Assembly: GCA_013360875.1 (NCBI GenBank)
Contig: JABWAU010000031.1
Location: 1-32,544, forward strand
Reading direction: 5' to 3'
Origin: Anaerolineales bacterium
GTDB taxonomy: Bacteria > Chloroflexota > Anaerolineae > Anaerolineales > Villigracilaceae
DNA length: 32,544 nt
Shown here: positions 33 through 7,569 of the stretch, piece after piece
Layout of the letters: every line of letters begins with the position of its first letter
How positions within the stretch are numbered: position 1 is the stretch's first letter
Notes under the pieces: generated by a model
What the model was told of the DNA's origin: nothing
The model's input: the letters and a program-made list of their open reading frames with translations, nothing else
Database searches by the model: none
Made by a program: the position numbers and the translations under genes

Positions 33-256
33 GAAATAGGACTAGCCACCTGACAGTTTGCTTCAACGGAGCTCTGTTGGTCGAGTAGGCGGCAGAAAAG
101 TATTGATTTTCAAGAAATGCTACTGTTTGCCGCCGTATCGAGACCAAATGTAGGCAGGAATTGCTGGAATTGTAGTCTCGATATGCCCCTCAAAGAACAC
201 TCGGGGCTACTCGACCACCATTTGCATCAAAAGTGTCAGGTGGCTAGGAAATAGGA
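33..256. mobile_element. MITE-like foldback element with 9-bp direct repeats
   Basis: A 206-bp element (42-247) begins with CTAGCCACCTGACA (42-55) and ends with its exact reverse complement (234-247). Immediately outside the ends, the 9-mer GAAATAGGA occurs on both sides (33-41 and 248-256), as expected of a target-site duplication. Two further nested inverted repeats lie inside: 78-88 with 207-217 (11 bp) and 136-144 with 175-183 (9 bp), so the whole element can fold back. It has no coding capacity. This is the structure of a non-autonomous miniature element moved by a DDE transposase that makes 9-bp duplications. The parent family cannot be named from the sequence. Bases 1-32 hold nothing I recognise. 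Confidence 0.8.
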
Positions 257-279
257 TAATCTTTCCCGCTGGAATCTTG

Positions 280-410: not shown

Positions 411-3400
411 ATGAAAAACCTGCGATATCATCGCGTGCTCAGCACGATGCGAAGTGTATTGTACCTGGCTTTGCTGGTTGCCTTGGCGTGGTTCCTGGTC
501 GGTAACTCCGAGGCAAGGGAGTCAATTGGCGCTTTTGGGGTCAGCCTGTTGTGGATTTTCATCCTGTTTTTTGCTGGGATCGTGGTCACACGCTGGTTGC
601 AGCAGCAAAAAGCCCCCATGATCTACCCCTTCCTCAATGCCACCGGCGACAAGGAAAACAAGGAAAAATACGACGCCCTGGCGTTGAATTTCTCCGAACT
701 CCTTCAACTCGAAATCCAGCGCATCACGCACCTGCTCTACATCCCCGAATCGATCGCGGTGCATAACCCAGCCTTCAAAAAGGAGCAGGTCCCCCGCCCG
801 ATCATCACCCCCACCGGTCCCGCCGCGCTTGGCAGCGCGAGGGCGGAGGACGAACTGGGGGAAATGCTGAAGGGGATCGGAGCGCTGTCGTTTGGTCCCG
901 TCAGCCTGCCGTTGGGAGGCTTGCTTTACCTTCTCGTACTCACGCTTCAGGGAGGCGGGATCACGGGGAAGATCCAAAAGTTTGGGGAAAAATTATCGGT
1001 GGTGGCATCCTACGCAAACCGCAAATACGAAGCCGTCAGCGATGCGCTTCCGTCCGCGGAACAGGGCGGCGAGGAAGCCGCGAAAGGGCTGGTTCGCCAA
1101 CTTGCCTATATGATCAGTTCGGACTTTGCCGATTTCCCGCCCTCACGCTGGCAGAGTTTCCGGGAGGTGATCGAAGGTCTCGAACATTATCAACGCTACC
1201 TGTTGAGCGGGAAACGCAACCAGTCCGCCCTCGAAGCCGCCCACAGGCATTTCGAACAAGCCACCGTCGAGGACAATCAATACGCATGGGCGTATTACAA
1301 CCTGGGCTTGTTATACGAGGAACAGGGAAACCTGGATTCGGCATTCGAGATGTACAAGCAGGCGGTTCAGTCGGAACCGAACCTGCGTGAGGCGCAATTT
1401 CAATTGGGAAAAGCGTATTCTCAAAGGGGACAGTTGTTGAACGCCGTCAATGCCGGAAGGCGAGCGGTGAAACTCGCCCAAAAAGCGAGGAAACCCTTTC
1501 CCGTCGCCAACACGTTTCTGGGGAAATGGTTGTATTCTCTGGCTTACGGGAGCCGGGACGACCACGCCGAGGCGCTCAAATATTGCAACGAAGCATTGGA
1601 ACATTTGAAGATCGCCAAAAAGGAATACATCCGTTTGATCCGGCAGGAACGCAGGCGGGCGGATTTCTCGGAACAACGGCTGGTCGGCTTCAGGGCGGGC
1701 GCGATCTATTCGCTCAAGGAACTCAGCCAGGCGTACAAGGTGCTGGCGAATTTGCTGGAAACCGCTGATCAGGATAAACCCTTCCGGGGGAAACTATTGG
1801 CATACACCCGGAACATCCTGTTGGGGTTGAGCCTCCAGCCGGAACGCGACGCCTACAGAAAAGCGGAAGACGCCCTGCGACAATGCCTGAAGTTGTACCC
1901 GGAAAGCAGTGAAGCCCACACCGAACTTGGCGGGTTCTACATGGATCGAAAAGACTATTTATCAGCGAAGGAACACCTGGAGCGCGCAGGCGGCATCAGT
2001 CCTGAAGATAAATCCGTGGTCCTTGAATTGGGAGCGACGTATCTGAGCCCAGCCATCGAGGATCTGATAGGTCTGTTCAGGGAGTTCCGAGACAATCCGC
2101 GCGGATGGAGCGTCAACTGGCCCGAACAGCGCGTCAACGCGACCCAGACCCAGTTGATGCTGGCGGCATTCCATTATCAAACCGTGATTGATCTGATCCG
2201 TTACCAGGGAGAGGCTGGAGTCGAGGACCAGGACCGCATGATCCGGGCGCTCAATGGGCTTGCGGCCGTTTACGGCTCGCAGGCGCTGATCCATTGCGTT
2301 CGCAACCAGGATTGCATGTTGCTTATCATGGACGCCAGACGGTATCTGGGCAAAGCCCTGGTGTTGAATCCGTTCGACGCCGAGGTATACGATAACCTTG
2401 CCGGGCTATACGCCATCGAATCGGAAGTGAAAAATTTCCCGCCGAAAGCCATTTCTTTCGATGGAGGCGCTGCCGATGTTGCATACCCGCCGGAGGATGC
2501 TGTTCCATTCCAAAGCGAGTCTTCTCCCTCGGGCGGCGAGACCCTCCAACAGGCTTATGAAACACTCAGGGATTATGTAAGGGAATATGGATCAACCGAC
2601 CCATATTCCACCACCGGAGTTGCGCTGGCGCTTGCATGCAGCACTCCTGAACAACGCGCCAGCAAGGAACTGGTGTCGCGGTTCCTGGAAGATCGCAACC
2701 TGTCCCTGCCCTCACCGGACGAGATGGAGGCTTCGCCGGTGTCGCAGGTCTACCTTTGGACGGCCGGCTGGATGTTCAACTCCATCGGCATGCCGGAACT
2801 GGGAATTCAGTACCTGGAAAGGGCGGCAAAAATGGGAGCCTTCCCCGAAGCGGACCTGGTGGATTACGACCTGGGCAATGTTTATTTGAGATTGAAGAAA
2901 TGGAATGACGCCATCGAGCGTTTCCAGAGGATGTCGCCGGCCGATCCCTATTTTTGGCAGAGCAGGATGACGCTGGCGGATGCCTTGCGGGAGACCGAAG
3001 CCGTGGACGGCGACGCTTCCGGTTTCTTCGCTTCCCTCGCCAATCTGCTGCCTGAGACGGCAGAAGGACAAAGCCCCATCGTTCCCTCGTCCATGGATAA
3101 TGACGAAATGTCGAATCAAGATAGATATTCCCTGCCCGGCGAAAGATTGAGCGCGGAAAGGGTCTATGGAGAGGCAATCGCGGCGGCCGGCAACGACCCG
3201 TATCGCAGGGCGACCGCCCTGGCAGCGCGGGCTGATCTGTTTTGGAGCCGGAAGAGATACGTCGAGGCAATAAACGACTGCCAGGAATCCCTCAAACTGG
3301 CGCCTGCCTATGCCTTTCCTCACAGGATTCTGGCGTTGATCCACATTGATCTGTTCGATTTCGACCGCGCCATCGAGGAATGGGAACGCGTCGGAAAACT

Positions 3401-4271
3401 GGTGCAGGACATGGATGAACCTCATTATCACCTCGGCTTGGGAGATGCGTATGCCAGCAAGGCGGATAGTTCAAGCAATGCCGGCGACGCGGAAACATGG
3501 CGCCGGCGGGCGGTGGAGGAATATCAACACGCCATCAGACTATTCAGAGCAAACGAGACAATGGACAAGGCGCGCACACAAACCGCGCTGGGCGATAACC
3601 TGATGATTTTGAAGCAATTCAAGGAGGCGGAGATCGCCTATCTTTCCGCCCTGGAATCGTCGAAAGGCATGCCCGACGAATACAGATTGCATACCAAACT
3701 CGCCTTCGTTTACGTCAAACGCGGCCTCTATGGCAGCGCGTATGCCGAATATAAAAAAGCGATTGAATTGTGTGAAGAACAACTCCAAAGAGCGTTGGAA
3801 AGCCGCGACACGCCGACTGTCGGCGGGTTGGCGGGCGGACTGGCGTATGCCTGCAACATGCTGGCTTATTATCTTCATGCCGAGCGCGGCGTAAATCTGG
3901 AGGAAGGTTTGGCATGGGTGAACCGCGCCCTAAATGAACTCGAACGCAGCAGCCTGGATGAAGCAATGAAACGGGATCATCGGGGCGCATACCTGGATAC
4001 GCGCGGCTGGCTATACTACCGCCAGGGCAAATACATCGAAGCAAAACAGGATCTGGAGAGGGCAATTTCGCTGACGATGGGAACCGTCTACGAGCACGGG
4101 CATCTGGCATTGACCTACGAGCGCCTGGCTGAAGTGAGCGGAAACGACGACGAACGGAAACGCCTGCAAACGATGAGCAGGGAACAATGGAATCTGGCGT
4201 TCGACCTGGATGAGGAGGGGATTTGGTCGGCGCACAAACGCGAGCGTTCCGGCAAAACCGTCGAAGCGTGA
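411..4271 (+). CDS. Large membrane-anchored TPR-repeat protein
   Basis: A 1286-residue protein with two hydrophobic segments near the N-terminus (about residues 14-34 and 44-62), which should anchor it in the membrane with a very long soluble remainder. Tetratricopeptide repeats recur through the rest. Clear examples lie near residues 290-355, 500-560, 819-845, 937-970, 1050-1080, 1093-1120 and 1192-1220, with the W/Y-x2-LG-x2-Y and A-x3-F/Y-x2-A-x4-P spacing of the family. No catalytic domain is recognisable, so it is probably a scaffold for protein-protein contacts. The ATG at 411 is chosen because a strong AGGAGG sits just upstream. It stands alone behind its own promoter; the next gene has a separate promoter. 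The function is unknown. Confidence 0.9.
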   Translation: MKNLRYHRVLSTMRSVLYLALLVALAWFLVGNSEARESIGAFGVSLLWIFILFFAGIVVTRWLQQQKAPMIYPFLNATGDKENKEKYDALALNFSELLQLEIQRITHLLYIPESIAVHNPAFKKEQVPRPIITPTGPAALGSARAEDELGEMLKGIGALSFGPVSLPLGGLLYLLVLTLQGGGITGKIQKFGEKLSVVASYANRKYEAVSDALPSAEQGGEEAAKGLVRQLAYMISSDFADFPPSRWQSFREVIEGLEHYQRYLLSGKRNQSALEAAHRHFEQATVEDNQYAWAYYNLGLLYEEQGNLDSAFEMYKQAVQSEPNLREAQFQLGKAYSQRGQLLNAVNAGRRAVKLAQKARKPFPVANTFLGKWLYSLAYGSRDDHAEALKYCNEALEHLKIAKKEYIRLIRQERRRADFSEQRLVGFRAGAIYSLKELSQAYKVLANLLETADQDKPFRGKLLAYTRNILLGLSLQPERDAYRKAEDALRQCLKLYPESSEAHTELGGFYMDRKDYLSAKEHLERAGGISPEDKSVVLELGATYLSPAIEDLIGLFREFRDNPRGWSVNWPEQRVNATQTQLMLAAFHYQTVIDLIRYQGEAGVEDQDRMIRALNGLAAVYGSQALIHCVRNQDCMLLIMDARRYLGKALVLNPFDAEVYDNLAGLYAIESEVKNFPPKAISFDGGAADVAYPPEDAVPFQSESSPSGGETLQQAYETLRDYVREYGSTDPYSTTGVALALACSTPEQRASKELVSRFLEDRNLSLPSPDEMEASPVSQVYLWTAGWMFNSIGMPELGIQYLERAAKMGAFPEADLVDYDLGNVYLRLKKWNDAIERFQRMSPADPYFWQSRMTLADALRETEAVDGDASGFFASLANLLPETAEGQSPIVPSSMDNDEMSNQDRYSLPGERLSAERVYGEAIAAAGNDPYRRATALAARADLFWSRKRYVEAINDCQESLKLAPAYAFPHRILALIHIDLFDFDRAIEEWERVGKLVQDMDEPHYHLGLGDAYASKADSSSNAGDAETWRRRAVEEYQHAIRLFRANETMDKARTQTALGDNLMILKQFKEAEIAYLSALESSKGMPDEYRLHTKLAFVYVKRGLYGSAYAEYKKAIELCEEQLQRALESRDTPTVGGLAGGLAYACNMLAYYLHAERGVNLEEGLAWVNRALNELERSSLDEAMKRDHRGAYLDTRGWLYYRQGKYIEAKQDLERAISLTMGTVYEHGHLALTYERLAEVSGNDDERKRLQTMSREQWNLAFDLDEEGIWSAHKRERSGKTVEA

Positions 4272-4585: not shown

Positions 4586-4603
4586 TTCGACAACCAAATA
4601 TTC

Positions 4604-4739
4604 GACCTTCGGGGCAGGGTGCAATTCCCGATCGGTGGTACAGCCCACGAGCCCTGTATGACCGACTTAAGTCGGTCATACGGAGCATGATCCGGTGCAA
4701 CTCCGGAGCCGACAGTAACAGTCTGGATGAAAGAAGGAT
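4604..4739 (+). promoter_or_regulatory. FMN riboswitch (RFN element)
   Basis: The conserved RFN blocks appear in order: CTTCGGGGCAGGGTG, then AATTCCCGATCGGTGGT, AGCCCACGAGC, GATCCGGTGCAACTCCGGAGCC, GACAGT and CTGGATGAAAGAAGG. The closing P1 stem is CCTTC (4606-4610) with GAAGG (about 4733-4737). The variable stem is an exact 26-bp palindrome (4656-4681, centred on TTAA). FMN binding is expected to reduce expression of the downstream transporter. The terminator at 4772-4806 is the likely expression platform. Confidence 0.95.
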
Positions 4740-4771
4740 ACAGGCTCATTGCGAGTCTGATTCGACATAGC

Positions 4772-4806
4772 CCCGGAAACGCGCCTTGTTTTCGGGATTT
4801 TGTTTT
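4772..4806 (+). terminator. Riboswitch-controlled intrinsic terminator
   Basis: A 9-bp stem, CCCGGAAAC (4772-4780) with GTTTTCGGG (4788-4796) including one G-U pair, has a 7-nt loop and is followed by ATTTTGTTTT. It sits 33 bp after the aptamer and ahead of the permease, where an FMN-dependent attenuator would be. Downstream, a GGACT/AGTCC hairpin (4826-4841) and an ACGCC...GGCGT hairpin with a T-rich tail (4850-4890) may add termination. Confidence 0.7.
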
Positions 4807-4902
4807 CACAACACGATGTCGCTTCGGACTCAGCCGAGTCCTGATTCTACGCCCCGGAGCATTGTCTCACGAGGCGTTTTTTGTTTTGCCCTCGCCCACA
4901 AG

Positions 4903-4922
4903 CCCTCTCCCAAAGGAGAGGG
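4903..4922 (+). repeat. CCCTCTCC palindrome overlapping a ribosome binding site
   Basis: CCCTCTCC (4903-4910), CAAA, then GGAGAGGG (4915-4922) forms an 8-bp hairpin. It is the same motif family as the large element at 11193-11273. Its right arm plus the following GGAGAAG is also the purine-rich ribosome binding region of the permease start at 4933. Confidence 0.65.
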
Positions 4923-4932
4923 GAGAAGAACG

Positions 4933-5679
4933 ATGATCAGGAGACTGACCCCCATCCTCCTTTCCGCTTTCGCCTTCCTCCTCGGATGGCACCTCCTCAC
5001 GCGCTACAGCGGGATCCCAAACTTTATATTGCCCTCCCCCCTCAGCGTATGGATGCGCTTCCTCAGAGCCGTGAGCGACGGCAGTTTGTTGCGACACACC
5101 CGCGTCACATTGATCGAGATCCTGCTTGGGTTGTTTGCGGGCGTCCTGTTTGCCGTCGTCGTGGGATACCTCCTTGCCAAATCGCGTTCGCTTGAAAAGG
5201 CGTTATCCCCGTATCTTATTGCGAGCCAGGCGATCCCGATCATTGCCATTGCGCCCCTGCTCGCCATCTGGCTCGGACCTGGAATCCTCTCGAAGGTGGT
5301 CATCTGCGCGTTGATCGTGTTCTTCCCTGTGCTGGTGAACACGATCGTGGGCGTGCGCGCCGTGCCGACCGCGTTATACGACCTGATGAACTCGCTCCAC
5401 GCCACGCGCGCGCATATCCTGTGGAAGGTGGAAGTGCCAGCCTCCCTGCCCGTCGTTCTCGGAGGCTTGCGCATCGGCGCGACGCTTTCGGTGATCGGCG
5501 CGATCGTGGGCGAGCTCGTGGATGCGCGGGAGGGTCTCGGTTATTTGCTGCGGGTGGGCGATTTTCAGTACGATACGCCGATGGTCTTCGTGGCGGTGTT
5601 CATCCTGATCGGCCTGGCGTTGACGTTGTATGGTTTCGTCCTGTTGTTGGAAAAGAGATTTTTGAAATGGCAGAAGTAG
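4933..5679 (+). CDS. ribX: ABC transporter permease, riboflavin-type (ThiX/SsuC-like)
   Basis: A 248-residue integral membrane subunit of an NMT1/THI5-class importer, with about six hydrophobic helices. The cytoplasmic coupling loop near residues 155-190 has the family form (LHATRAHILWKVEVPASLP...GLRIGATLSVIGAIVGE). The frame is open back to 4786, but that stretch is riboswitch leader and repeat DNA. ATG 4933, with GGGGAGAAG just upstream, gives the usual length and the normal N-terminal helix. The FMN riboswitch and the following binding protein and ATPase point to riboflavin or a flavin precursor as substrate. I recall such systems in Chloroflexi as RibXY; the assignment is by context and no binding residue was tested. 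A thiamine-precursor or sulfonate transporter is the alternative. Confidence 0.85.
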   Translation: MIRRLTPILLSAFAFLLGWHLLTRYSGIPNFILPSPLSVWMRFLRAVSDGSLLRHTRVTLIEILLGLFAGVLFAVVVGYLLAKSRSLEKALSPYLIASQAIPIIAIAPLLAIWLGPGILSKVVICALIVFFPVLVNTIVGVRAVPTALYDLMNSLHATRAHILWKVEVPASLPVVLGGLRIGATLSVIGAIVGELVDAREGLGYLLRVGDFQYDTPMVFVAVFILIGLALTLYGFVLLLEKRFLKWQK

Positions 5680-5706
5680 CCCATTACGTAATGAAAAGGA
5701 GACTCT

Positions 5707-6687
5707 ATGTTTCGCAAATTGATCTTGATCCTGCTCGGGCTGGGAATCGTTCTCTCGGGATGCGGCAGTCCCGGGTCCACGAATGAAGCGGGCAAATTGA
5801 CCCACATCCGCCTGCCGATCGGGTACATCCCGAACATCCAGTTCGCGCCGTTGTACGTCGCCATCGAAAAGGGATATTTCCGCGAGGCGGGCATCGAAAT
5901 CGAGTTCGATTATTCGTTCGAGACCAACGGGGTCAAACTGGTGGGCGCGGGCGAACTTCCCTTTGCGGTGGTTTCGGGCGAACAGGTTTTGATCGCGCGC
6001 AATGAGGGATTGCCGGTGGTGTACGTTGCCGCGTGGTACCAGCAGTATCCGATTTCGGTGGTTGCCAAAAGCGAACTTGGAATCTTGATCCCACAGGATC
6101 TGAAGGGGAAAAAGATCGGACTGCCCGGCTTGTTCGGCGCGAACTACGTGGGCTTGCGCGCCTTGTTGTTCGAGGCGGGAATGAGCGAAAATGACGTGAT
6201 CCTTGATTCGATCGGTTTCAACCAGGTGGAACTCATGGCGGCTGGGCAACAGGATATCATCGTCGGATACGCGGCGAACGAACCGGTTCAATTGCGCGCC
6301 CAGGGTATTCCGGTGACCGAGCTGCGCGTGGCGGATTACGTGGAATTGGCGTCGAACGGAATCCTGGCAAGCGAAAAGGTGATCGCGGAAGACCCTGACC
6401 TGGTGCGCGCGTTCGTGGGTGCGTTCCTGAAGGGACTCGCCGATGCGATAGAAGATCCCGACGGGGCGATTGTGTCGAGCGAACCGCACATCCCGAACTT
6501 TTCCGATCTCGATCCTGACGTGCAGAGGAAGGTGCTGGAAATTTCCATCGAACAATGGAAGGCGGAACGACTCGGTTATTCCGACCCGCAGGCGTGGGAG
6601 AACATGCAGGACGTTCTGCTCGACATGGGCTTGATCTCGGAGAAAATGGACCTGAGCAAGGCGTACACGAACGAGTTTATTCCGTGA
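5707..6687 (+). CDS. ribY: Lipoprotein binding protein, NMT1/THI5-like (riboflavin-type)
   Basis: A 326-residue substrate-binding lipoprotein. The signal peptide ends in the lipobox LSGC (Cys about residue 19), so the mature protein is tethered outside the membrane. The mature part starts with the NMT1/THI5 pattern (LPIGYIPNIQFAPLYVAIEKG, then YFREAGIEIEF and GAGELPFAVVSGEQ). This family binds flat heterocycles such as thiamine pyrimidine precursors; the FMN riboswitch upstream suggests riboflavin here. It lies 27 bp after the permease with AAAGGAG as ribosome site, in one operon. The length is normal for the family. Confidence 0.85.
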   Translation: MFRKLILILLGLGIVLSGCGSPGSTNEAGKLTHIRLPIGYIPNIQFAPLYVAIEKGYFREAGIEIEFDYSFETNGVKLVGAGELPFAVVSGEQVLIARNEGLPVVYVAAWYQQYPISVVAKSELGILIPQDLKGKKIGLPGLFGANYVGLRALLFEAGMSENDVILDSIGFNQVELMAAGQQDIIVGYAANEPVQLRAQGIPVTELRVADYVELASNGILASEKVIAEDPDLVRAFVGAFLKGLADAIEDPDGAIVSSEPHIPNFSDLDPDVQRKVLEISIEQWKAERLGYSDPQAWENMQDVLLDMGLISEKMDLSKAYTNEFIP

Positions 6688-6709
6688 GGCAGCGGGCAGG
6701 CGCGTGGGC

Positions 6710-6741
6710 AGACAAGTAGACAGATACACAAGGAAACAAGT
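6710..6741. repeat. Octamer tandem repeat, consensus AGACAAGT
   Basis: Four exact-period octamers follow each other: AGACAAGT, AGACAGAT, ACACAAGG, AAACAAGT. The same octamer family appears, in both orientations, at 9973-10026. The repeat sits in the gap between the binding-protein and ATPase genes. Confidence 0.6.
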
Positions 6742-6781
6742 ACAAACTCAATTCTCTAATTCACCAGTTCTCCGCTCCTCA

Positions 6782-6823
6782 ATCGCTTATCGCCAATTGC
6801 AAATCGCAAATCGTAAATCGAAA
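6782..6823. repeat. Heptamer tandem repeat, consensus ATCGCAA
   Basis: Six period-7 units run without a gap: ATCGCTT, ATCGCCA, ATTGCAA, ATCGCAA, ATCGTAA, ATCGAAA. The last base of the sixth is the A of the ATPase start codon, so the repeat replaces the usual ribosome binding region. Related units occur at 8731-8751 and 21989-22016. Confidence 0.7.
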
Positions 6824-7569
6824 TGTCCCACACTCCCATCCTCTCCATTCGCAGCCTTGGCGCCATGTTTACCAACGAAAACGGTGGTCTGCGCGTATTG
6901 GAAGATGTGACGTTCGACGTGCATCCCCGCGAATTCGTATGCGTGCTGGGTCCATCGGGTTCGGGGAAGACCACCCTCCTGCGCCTGGTGGCGGGTCTGC
7001 TGACTCCAACTACGGGTCAAATCACCTTTGCGCGCAAACAGCAGCCGCGCATCGGCATGGTCTTCCAACAGGCGAACCTCATGGCGTGGCGCACGGTCGA
7101 ACAAAACATCATGCTCCCGCTTGAAGTGGACGGCGTCGGCGAACGAACGGCTCTCGAAAAAACACGTGAAATGATCGAACTGATGGGATTGCAGGGATTC
7201 GAAGACTCGTATCCACGCGACCTTTCCGGCGGGATGGCGCAACGCGTGGCGATCGCGCGGGCGCTCATCCATGACCCGGACCTGCTCCTGCTCGACGAGC
7301 CTTTCGCCTCCCTCGACGCGATGACCCGCGAACACATGTGGAACGAATTGTCGCGCATCTGGCAGGCGAAACAAAAGACCGTCATCATGGTGACGCATTC
7401 GATCAACGAGTCGTTGTTCTTAGCCGATAGAGTCCTGGTGCTGACCCAGCGTCCCGGCAAAATCAAAATGGACGTGGAGGTTGACCTGCCGCGTCCGCGC
7501 AAGGACGACATCCGTTACACCCCGCATTTCGGAAAACTGGCGCGCAAACTGAGACAGGCGATTGAATGA
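6823..7569 (+). CDS. ABC transporter ATPase (SsuB/TauB type) of the riboflavin-type importer
   Basis: A 248-residue cytoplasmic nucleotide-binding subunit with intact motifs: Walker A GPSGSGKT (about residue 43), Q-loop VFQQ, signature LSGGMAQR, Walker B LLLLDEP, D-loop SLD and the H-loop histidine in VTHS. It resembles the NitT/TauT ATPase group that pairs with NMT1/THI5-type binding proteins. It closes the riboswitch-controlled operon, 135 bp after the binding-protein gene. That gap is filled by octamer and heptamer repeats. No Shine-Dalgarno is visible before ATG 6823, because heptamer repeat runs right up to it. Translation efficiency may therefore differ from the first two genes. Confidence 0.88.
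   Translation: MSHTPILSIRSLGAMFTNENGGLRVLEDVTFDVHPREFVCVLGPSGSGKTTLLRLVAGLLTPTTGQITFARKQQPRIGMVFQQANLMAWRTVEQNIMLPLEVDGVGERTALEKTREMIELMGLQGFEDSYPRDLSGGMAQRVAIARALIHDPDLLLLDEPFASLDAMTREHMWNELSRIWQAKQKTVIMVTHSINESLFLADRVLVLTQRPGKIKMDVEVDLPRPRKDDIRYTPHFGKLARKLRQAIE

Follow-up and report, generated by a model that had tools for sequence, protein, structure and literature searches.

The 206-bp element at positions 42–247 of the window (the whole 32,544-nt stretch of DNA from an Anaerolineales bacterium that was analysed here) is best explained as an IS4-family MITE, which has the same ends as an insertion sequence (IS) of related genomes and would be mobilised by its transposase, a reading to which we give a probability of about 93%. 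The mechanism of the element is ordinary; what is unusual is its interior, a head-to-head dimer of a palindromic unit of the form GGTCGAGTAG-hairpin-TATCGAGACC.

The element is flanked by a perfect 9-bp target duplication, GAAATAGGA, at 33–41 and 248–256. Its terminal inverted repeat is exact over 14 bp (42–55/234–247) and reaches 18 bp with one mismatch (42–59 on the forward strand, 230–247 on the reverse); none of 20,000 base shuffles gave a 14-bp inverted repeat at these fixed end positions. Further inverted repeats are nested inside, at 75–88/207–220 (93%), 81–94/128–141 (79%) and 136–144/175–183 (100%), and the fold of the element (z −9.0 and −8.8 under DNA and RNA energies respectively) is equalled by none of 200 dinucleotide shuffles. 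The original prediction of a foldback element with exact 14-bp ends, nested repeats and a 9-bp duplication is therefore borne out. It was right that nested repeats are present, but missed that they represent a distinct family of palindromic repeats, of which two units are present: a first unit at 79–145 on the forward strand, consisting of GGTCGAGTAG, a hairpin with a 47-nt centre and TATCGAGACC; a 28-nt spacer at 146–173; and a second, inverted unit at 174–216 on the reverse strand, which is matched by many short hits elsewhere in the genome. There is no ORF of at least 80 aa inside the element and tblastn finds no transposase remnant in it; the interior seems to code for nothing.

Copies, empty sites and the neighbouring promoter

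The source genome is a draft of 3.99 Mb in 208 contigs, the window being contig C12. A search of it with the element returned 22 matches, eight of them end-reaching or near full length, and the remaining 14 covering part of the interior only, mostly the second repeat unit alone. As the end of C32 and the start of C92 look like the halves of one copy across a contig break, and GAGTTTTA is found on either side of it, the insertions probably number seven rather than eight. They occupy unrelated sites. Perfect 9-bp duplications flank the copies in C12 and C182; inspection of the flanks showed no duplication at the copies in C29 and at C92:10496, the C123 copy is cut by the contig end, and the C119 copy is without its left end. 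Both perfect duplications end in ATAGGA followed by TAA (window 251–260 and L003:1710–1720), a coincidence of only two cases that is a possible target preference.

The region of the downstream TPR gene can be aligned in one of the 17 other genomes of the genus (G006, 92%). There the TPR site has GAAATCGGATAAT once and the element is absent, a single GAAATCGGA standing in place of the duplication. The insertion site of the C182 copy is empty in G006 too, with a single ATTATAGGA, and the only match to the element in that genome (E ≤ 0.001) is to the second unit alone. Both insertions (C12 and C182) thus postdate the split from G006, or have been precisely lost there, and the window insertion is a young event. 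The original prediction had proposed a recently moved non-autonomous element and had suggested looking for other copies of 42–247 in the source genome and for an empty site in relatives. Both were found, the latter with one target copy, and together with the same-ended IS of relatives described below they uphold it; the element is neither devoid of copies and IS ends in every genome nor fixed at this site in all relatives.

The suggestion that the insertion lies where the −35 of the TPR gene should be is not supported in that form. This gene (411–4271, forward strand) encodes a TPR-repeat protein of 1286 aa, and its putative −10, TATAAT at 280–285 on the same strand, is kept in the sister species. 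At a spacing of 17 nt from TATAAT, the −35 slot falls at 257–262, outside the element and its duplication, with the element ending ten bases before it. The slot reads TAATCT in the window and TAATTT in G006. Since the empty site in G006 shares the TATAAT and its −35 slot is of comparably poor quality, the core promoter was left untouched by the insertion. The accompanying idea that the promoter may have been changed survives in part: the insertion replaced the sequence upstream of about −40, and perhaps made a weak, putative hybrid promoter at 233–260 on the forward strand, in which GTGTCA at 233–238 in the right end is followed after 16 nt by GATAAT in the flank (nine of 12 bases, against a shuffle mean of 0.2). 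A consensus promoter scan reported this match and not the TATAAT promoter at 280–285.

The IS4-type partner

Of 152 genomes from the same bacterial family, 37 contain the exact 14-bp end of the element (two hits overall for the reversed control), and two pairs of ends about 1.19 kb apart enclose a transposase frame. Relatives of this transposase are present in 33 of the 152 genomes (protein search, E ≤ 1e-20), and those that are near full length (54–100% identity) lie between such ends in 12 out of 12 cases, forming ISs of 1173–1195 bp. Eight of these have perfect duplications of 8–9 bp, one has a duplication with one mismatch, and three have none (one at a contig end). Five more distant relatives (L153, L155, L156, L157 and L162) have, at up to three mismatches, neither these ends nor those of the second kind described below.

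One transposase protein scores 165.6 bits against NCBIfam NF033591 (IS4; cut-off 152), two are above the cut-off of Pfam DDE_Tnp_1, and the D, D, E and YREK residues are in place in all 12, one of which has K for R. The transposase has matches in 139 records of a plasmid collection, none at 60% identity or more and the best at about 30%; several of these records are annotated as IS4 family. A search of solved structures gave five matches, all Rab-33B at E 0.49 or worse, which we take as chance. YREK and duplications of about 10 bp are marks of the IS4 family in the available part of its survey (De Palmenaer et al. 2008, PMC2266710), and the partner IS is like the members described there in its DDE transposase without frameshift, its YREK and its AT-rich duplications of roughly 8–9 bp. 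Its ends begin with CT, as in the IS10, IS50 and ISPepr1 subgroups, yet the combination of 1173–1195 bp with 8–9-bp duplications does not fully fit any subgroup in Table 1 of that source, where IS50 has 1350–1550 bp, IS10 has 1200–1350 bp with 9 bp, and IS4Sa begins with CA. The 206-bp element itself differs from IS4 family members in being without a transposase gene.

The suggested search for a transposase with the same ends was thus successful in other genomes of the family, but not in the source genome, where the 208-contig draft has no such transposase at E ≤ 1e-20. Every end in this genome with up to one mismatch belongs to a MITE copy. The five ends with two mismatches that lie outside MITE copies were rejected as extra IS ends: none has an inverted partner at up to three mismatches in stretches of about 3 kb, and the two-mismatch pattern is no commoner than its reversed control (8+8 versus 14+11).

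A same-ended IS with an IS4-type transposase in relatives, and none found in the own genome, identifies the element as a non-autonomous MITE. It has 18-bp terminal inverted repeats in common with an autonomous IS of related genomes, and its duplication is as long as those which this IS usually makes (9 bp at the window and at C182; 8–9 bp in eight of the 12 ISs); it is short, without transposase coding, and repeated, with empty sites in relatives. For both the ISs and the miniature elements, the target duplications are AT-rich and 8–9 bp long. Judging from these shared sequence features, mobilisation would occur in trans: the IS transposase would bind both ends of the miniature element, excise it and paste it into a staggered 8–9-bp cut, the repair of which would leave the target duplication. 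This would explain the insertion in the window, beside a core promoter that is intact.

Short elements with the same ends and their interiors

Pairing of ends at 60–700 bp in all loci examined gave 58 candidate miniature elements, the loci having been fetched largely by the exact end, so that the sample is not random. One mis-paired candidate (L254:6880) was dropped to leave 57; it still counts among the 58 of the transposase-remnant search and the 56 that were folded, and is left out of the clustering and the duplication counts. Both flanks are available for 56 short elements. A perfect duplication is present in 29 of these (8 bp in 19 and 9 bp in 10, with 80% A+T) and one with no more than one mismatch in 39, whereas re-dealt flanks give means of 0.5 (maximum 4) and 1.0 (maximum 5) respectively. 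Folding with RNA energies placed 50 of 56 cores at z ≤ −2, the mis-paired one being among the 50 and related copies not being independent.

Machine clustering divided the interiors into groups of 24, 19, 4, 2, 2 and 2 and four singles. The group of 24 comprises classes A, B and F and nested elements, and the group of 19 is the GTAG type of the window element (the division into classes A to H was made by eye). The shell CTAGCCACCTGACA therefore holds several unrelated foldback interiors in related genomes. Counting as free-standing those places with no such end within 90 bp and away from a locus edge, the GTAG-type interior is free-standing at 37 of 72 places, many of the loci having been fetched because they match it. 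The corresponding figures for the other interiors are 1/15 for A, 1/18 for B, 0/5 for C, 0/2 for D, 2/3 for F, 0/2 for G, 4/7 for H, 3/5 for H2 and 1/2 for unclassified ones. Free-standing copies are thus well shown only for the GTAG-type interior; that the others are common intergenic repeats is in part our assumption. At L199:4006–4296 and L264:5017–5393 a foldback element is nested inside a miniature element, with what appear by eye to be direct repeats of about 16–20 bp at the junctions.

The 18-bp end is found in at least 117 stretches of a genome-contig collection. Among the 80 listed, 79 are titled Chloroflexi/Chloroflexota or member groups such as Anaerolineae, and one is titled Alphaproteobacteria. 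The latter contig, presented as a MAG, has a copy with the GTAG-type interior at L208:3343–3506, through transfer or mis-binning. A copy in G017, of the same genus as the source genome, is identical to one in the record of Anaerolineales bacterium SJ198 (L064 and L184).

The family could have begun as internal-deletion derivatives of the IS into which palindromic repeats inserted later, instead of through ends coming to flank a pre-existing repeat. Transposase remnants lie between the ends of L215 (tblastn E as low as 1e-11), L286 has by eye the look of two IS ends joined together, and the foldback elements nested in L199 and L264 would, again by eye, fit later insertion. However, L215 is the only one of the 58 candidates with a transposase remnant, and the others resemble the IS by eye in little but about 18 bp per end. 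We regard such an origin as possible, if on the whole rather doubtful.

Far less probable is that a regulatory or RNA function upstream of the TPR gene has preserved the element. Its strong fold and the weak hybrid promoter-like match spanning its right end would suit such a role, but its copies occupy sites unrelated to one another, the element is missing from this site in the sister species, Rfam finds nothing at the element, and 17 aligned copies show weak covariation (both sides changed in 7 of 39 pairs, term −0.41). A known structured RNA was likewise rejected, as the sole Rfam match in the window is an FMN riboswitch at 4601–4742. It lies upstream of genes at 4786–7569 for an inner-membrane transport component, an NMT1/THI5-like binding protein and an ABC ATPase, presumably an ordinary flavin-related transporter.

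The GTAG-type interior

In the own genome there are 47 instances of the exact palindromic-unit pattern, and 34 of 61 genomes have it, the reversed control being zero in every row; the count excludes the first unit of the element, the 47-nt centre of which is too long. Only one of 43 listed places in the own genome (C32:97655–97697) is inside an element copy. The units, in the own genome as in 33 of 60 others, have constant arms and very variable stems and often form head-to-head dimers; the stems, which vary between copies, look self-complementary by eye. In the loci examined there are 47 distinct dimers, the spacers of which measure 19–30 nt in the 14 with both ends, 25–39 nt in the nine with one end and 31–50 nt in the 24 without ends, the 28 nt of the window element being typical of dimers inside the shell. 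That the short spacer is common to the pairs in the shell and missing from free-standing pairs points to one acquisition of the dimer: a head-to-head pair would have been taken up once by an ancestral copy and then, probably, have spread with the shell.

GTAG beside a hairpin, high copy number and dimers are features that the interior has in common with GTAG REPs and REPINs. In the available part of the account of GTAG-type REP repeats, which covers 24 families (Di Nocera et al. 2013, PMC3733652), GTAG likewise stands beside the hairpin and the units form head-to-head dimers. The present case differs from those in that the outer palindrome consists of IS4-type ends with 8–9-bp duplications and that no associated RAYT was found at 20 Y1 loci. 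The nearest precedent we found is in the same source, the GTAG-15 dimers of Anabaena variabilis, which lie within long palindromes. Bacterial MITEs as presented there resemble the element in being short and non-coding, with inverted ends shared with an IS and a target duplication, next to genes; unlike them, the element has as its interior a dimer of another abundant repeat family, and its ends carry several unrelated foldback interiors. As far as the available part of PMC3119063 goes, the PATEs of Haloquadratum are also transposase-free mobile elements with palindromes, and are commonly nested within one another; unlike the element, they have neither target duplications nor terminal inverted repeats, and in some cases they derive from IS605-type transposons.

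One alternative is that the element is a REPIN/BIME mobilised by a single-strand Y1 transposase (RAYT) and that its CTAG ends are incidental. This would account for an interior of paired GTAG-type palindromes that also abound by themselves, and all 21 genomes searched have Y1 transposase genes (three in the own genome). We consider it the least credible explanation of all, since none of the 20 Y1 loci examined, of 68 found, is flanked by a complete unit of the interior's family, and ends of 18 bp with 8–9-bp duplications are in keeping with a DDE transposase, Y1 enzymes not being known to make target duplications. At two of these loci there are three half-motifs that stand alone, each with one mismatch and without a partner half: one at L290 and two at L292. 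The latter stand one on either side of the gene, and the second opens a GTAG hairpin of another kind (GTAG beside GTCACG...CGTGAC), which follows the Y1 transposase gene at L292:1690–1760 in G003 and is possibly the true partner repeat of that enzyme.

A proposed organisation into shells and cargo

In one genome, G139, two kinds of end are found around the same interior class. This class has 44 matches there, of which 19 reach at least 96% identity across 81–95 of the 95 bases. Four copies taken in full have the CTAGCC shell. Among ten more diverged copies (77–90% where listed at E below 1e-11), three have the CTAGCC shell, four are in a second shell, bounded by CTGATTACCTTACA, a further one shows just the left end of that shell, and two have neither kind of end. 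The four second-shell elements (L329, L331, L332 and L333) are 132–143 bp long, three with perfect 9-bp duplications and one with eight of nine bases matching. In other genomes, CTGATTACCTTACA ends bound IS4-type ISs of 1233–1235 bp at seven loci (L158–L161 and L163–L165), three of which have perfect 9-bp duplications; their transposase group is 30–32% identical to the first. G139 has neither transposase group at E ≤ 1e-20. Exchange of the interior or stepwise change of the ends could both give two shells.

Several interiors in one shell, and one interior in two shells, lead us to read these as modular 'shell and cargo' MITEs. We propose tentatively, and at somewhat less than even odds, that in these Chloroflexota the ends of IS4-type transposons serve as exchangeable shells, which pick up common intergenic foldback repeats as their cargo and disperse these. 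Each of the two shells of G139 matches a different IS4-type transposase group. Our literature search found no report of a MITE from Anaerolineae and one paper joining MITE, REPIN and the IS4 family, the latter two only among its references; as ISfinder and most subscription papers were outside its scope, we claim no priority.

Palindromic repeats are spread widely between the genes of bacteria, and many of them have no known transposase. If the proposal is true, carriage by IS transposases would explain how palindromic repeats spread without a transposase of their own, and a self-folding interior may be favoured in that it brings the two ends together. With an IS family of defined ends that carries several palindromic repeats, the question of what moves such repeats becomes directly testable.
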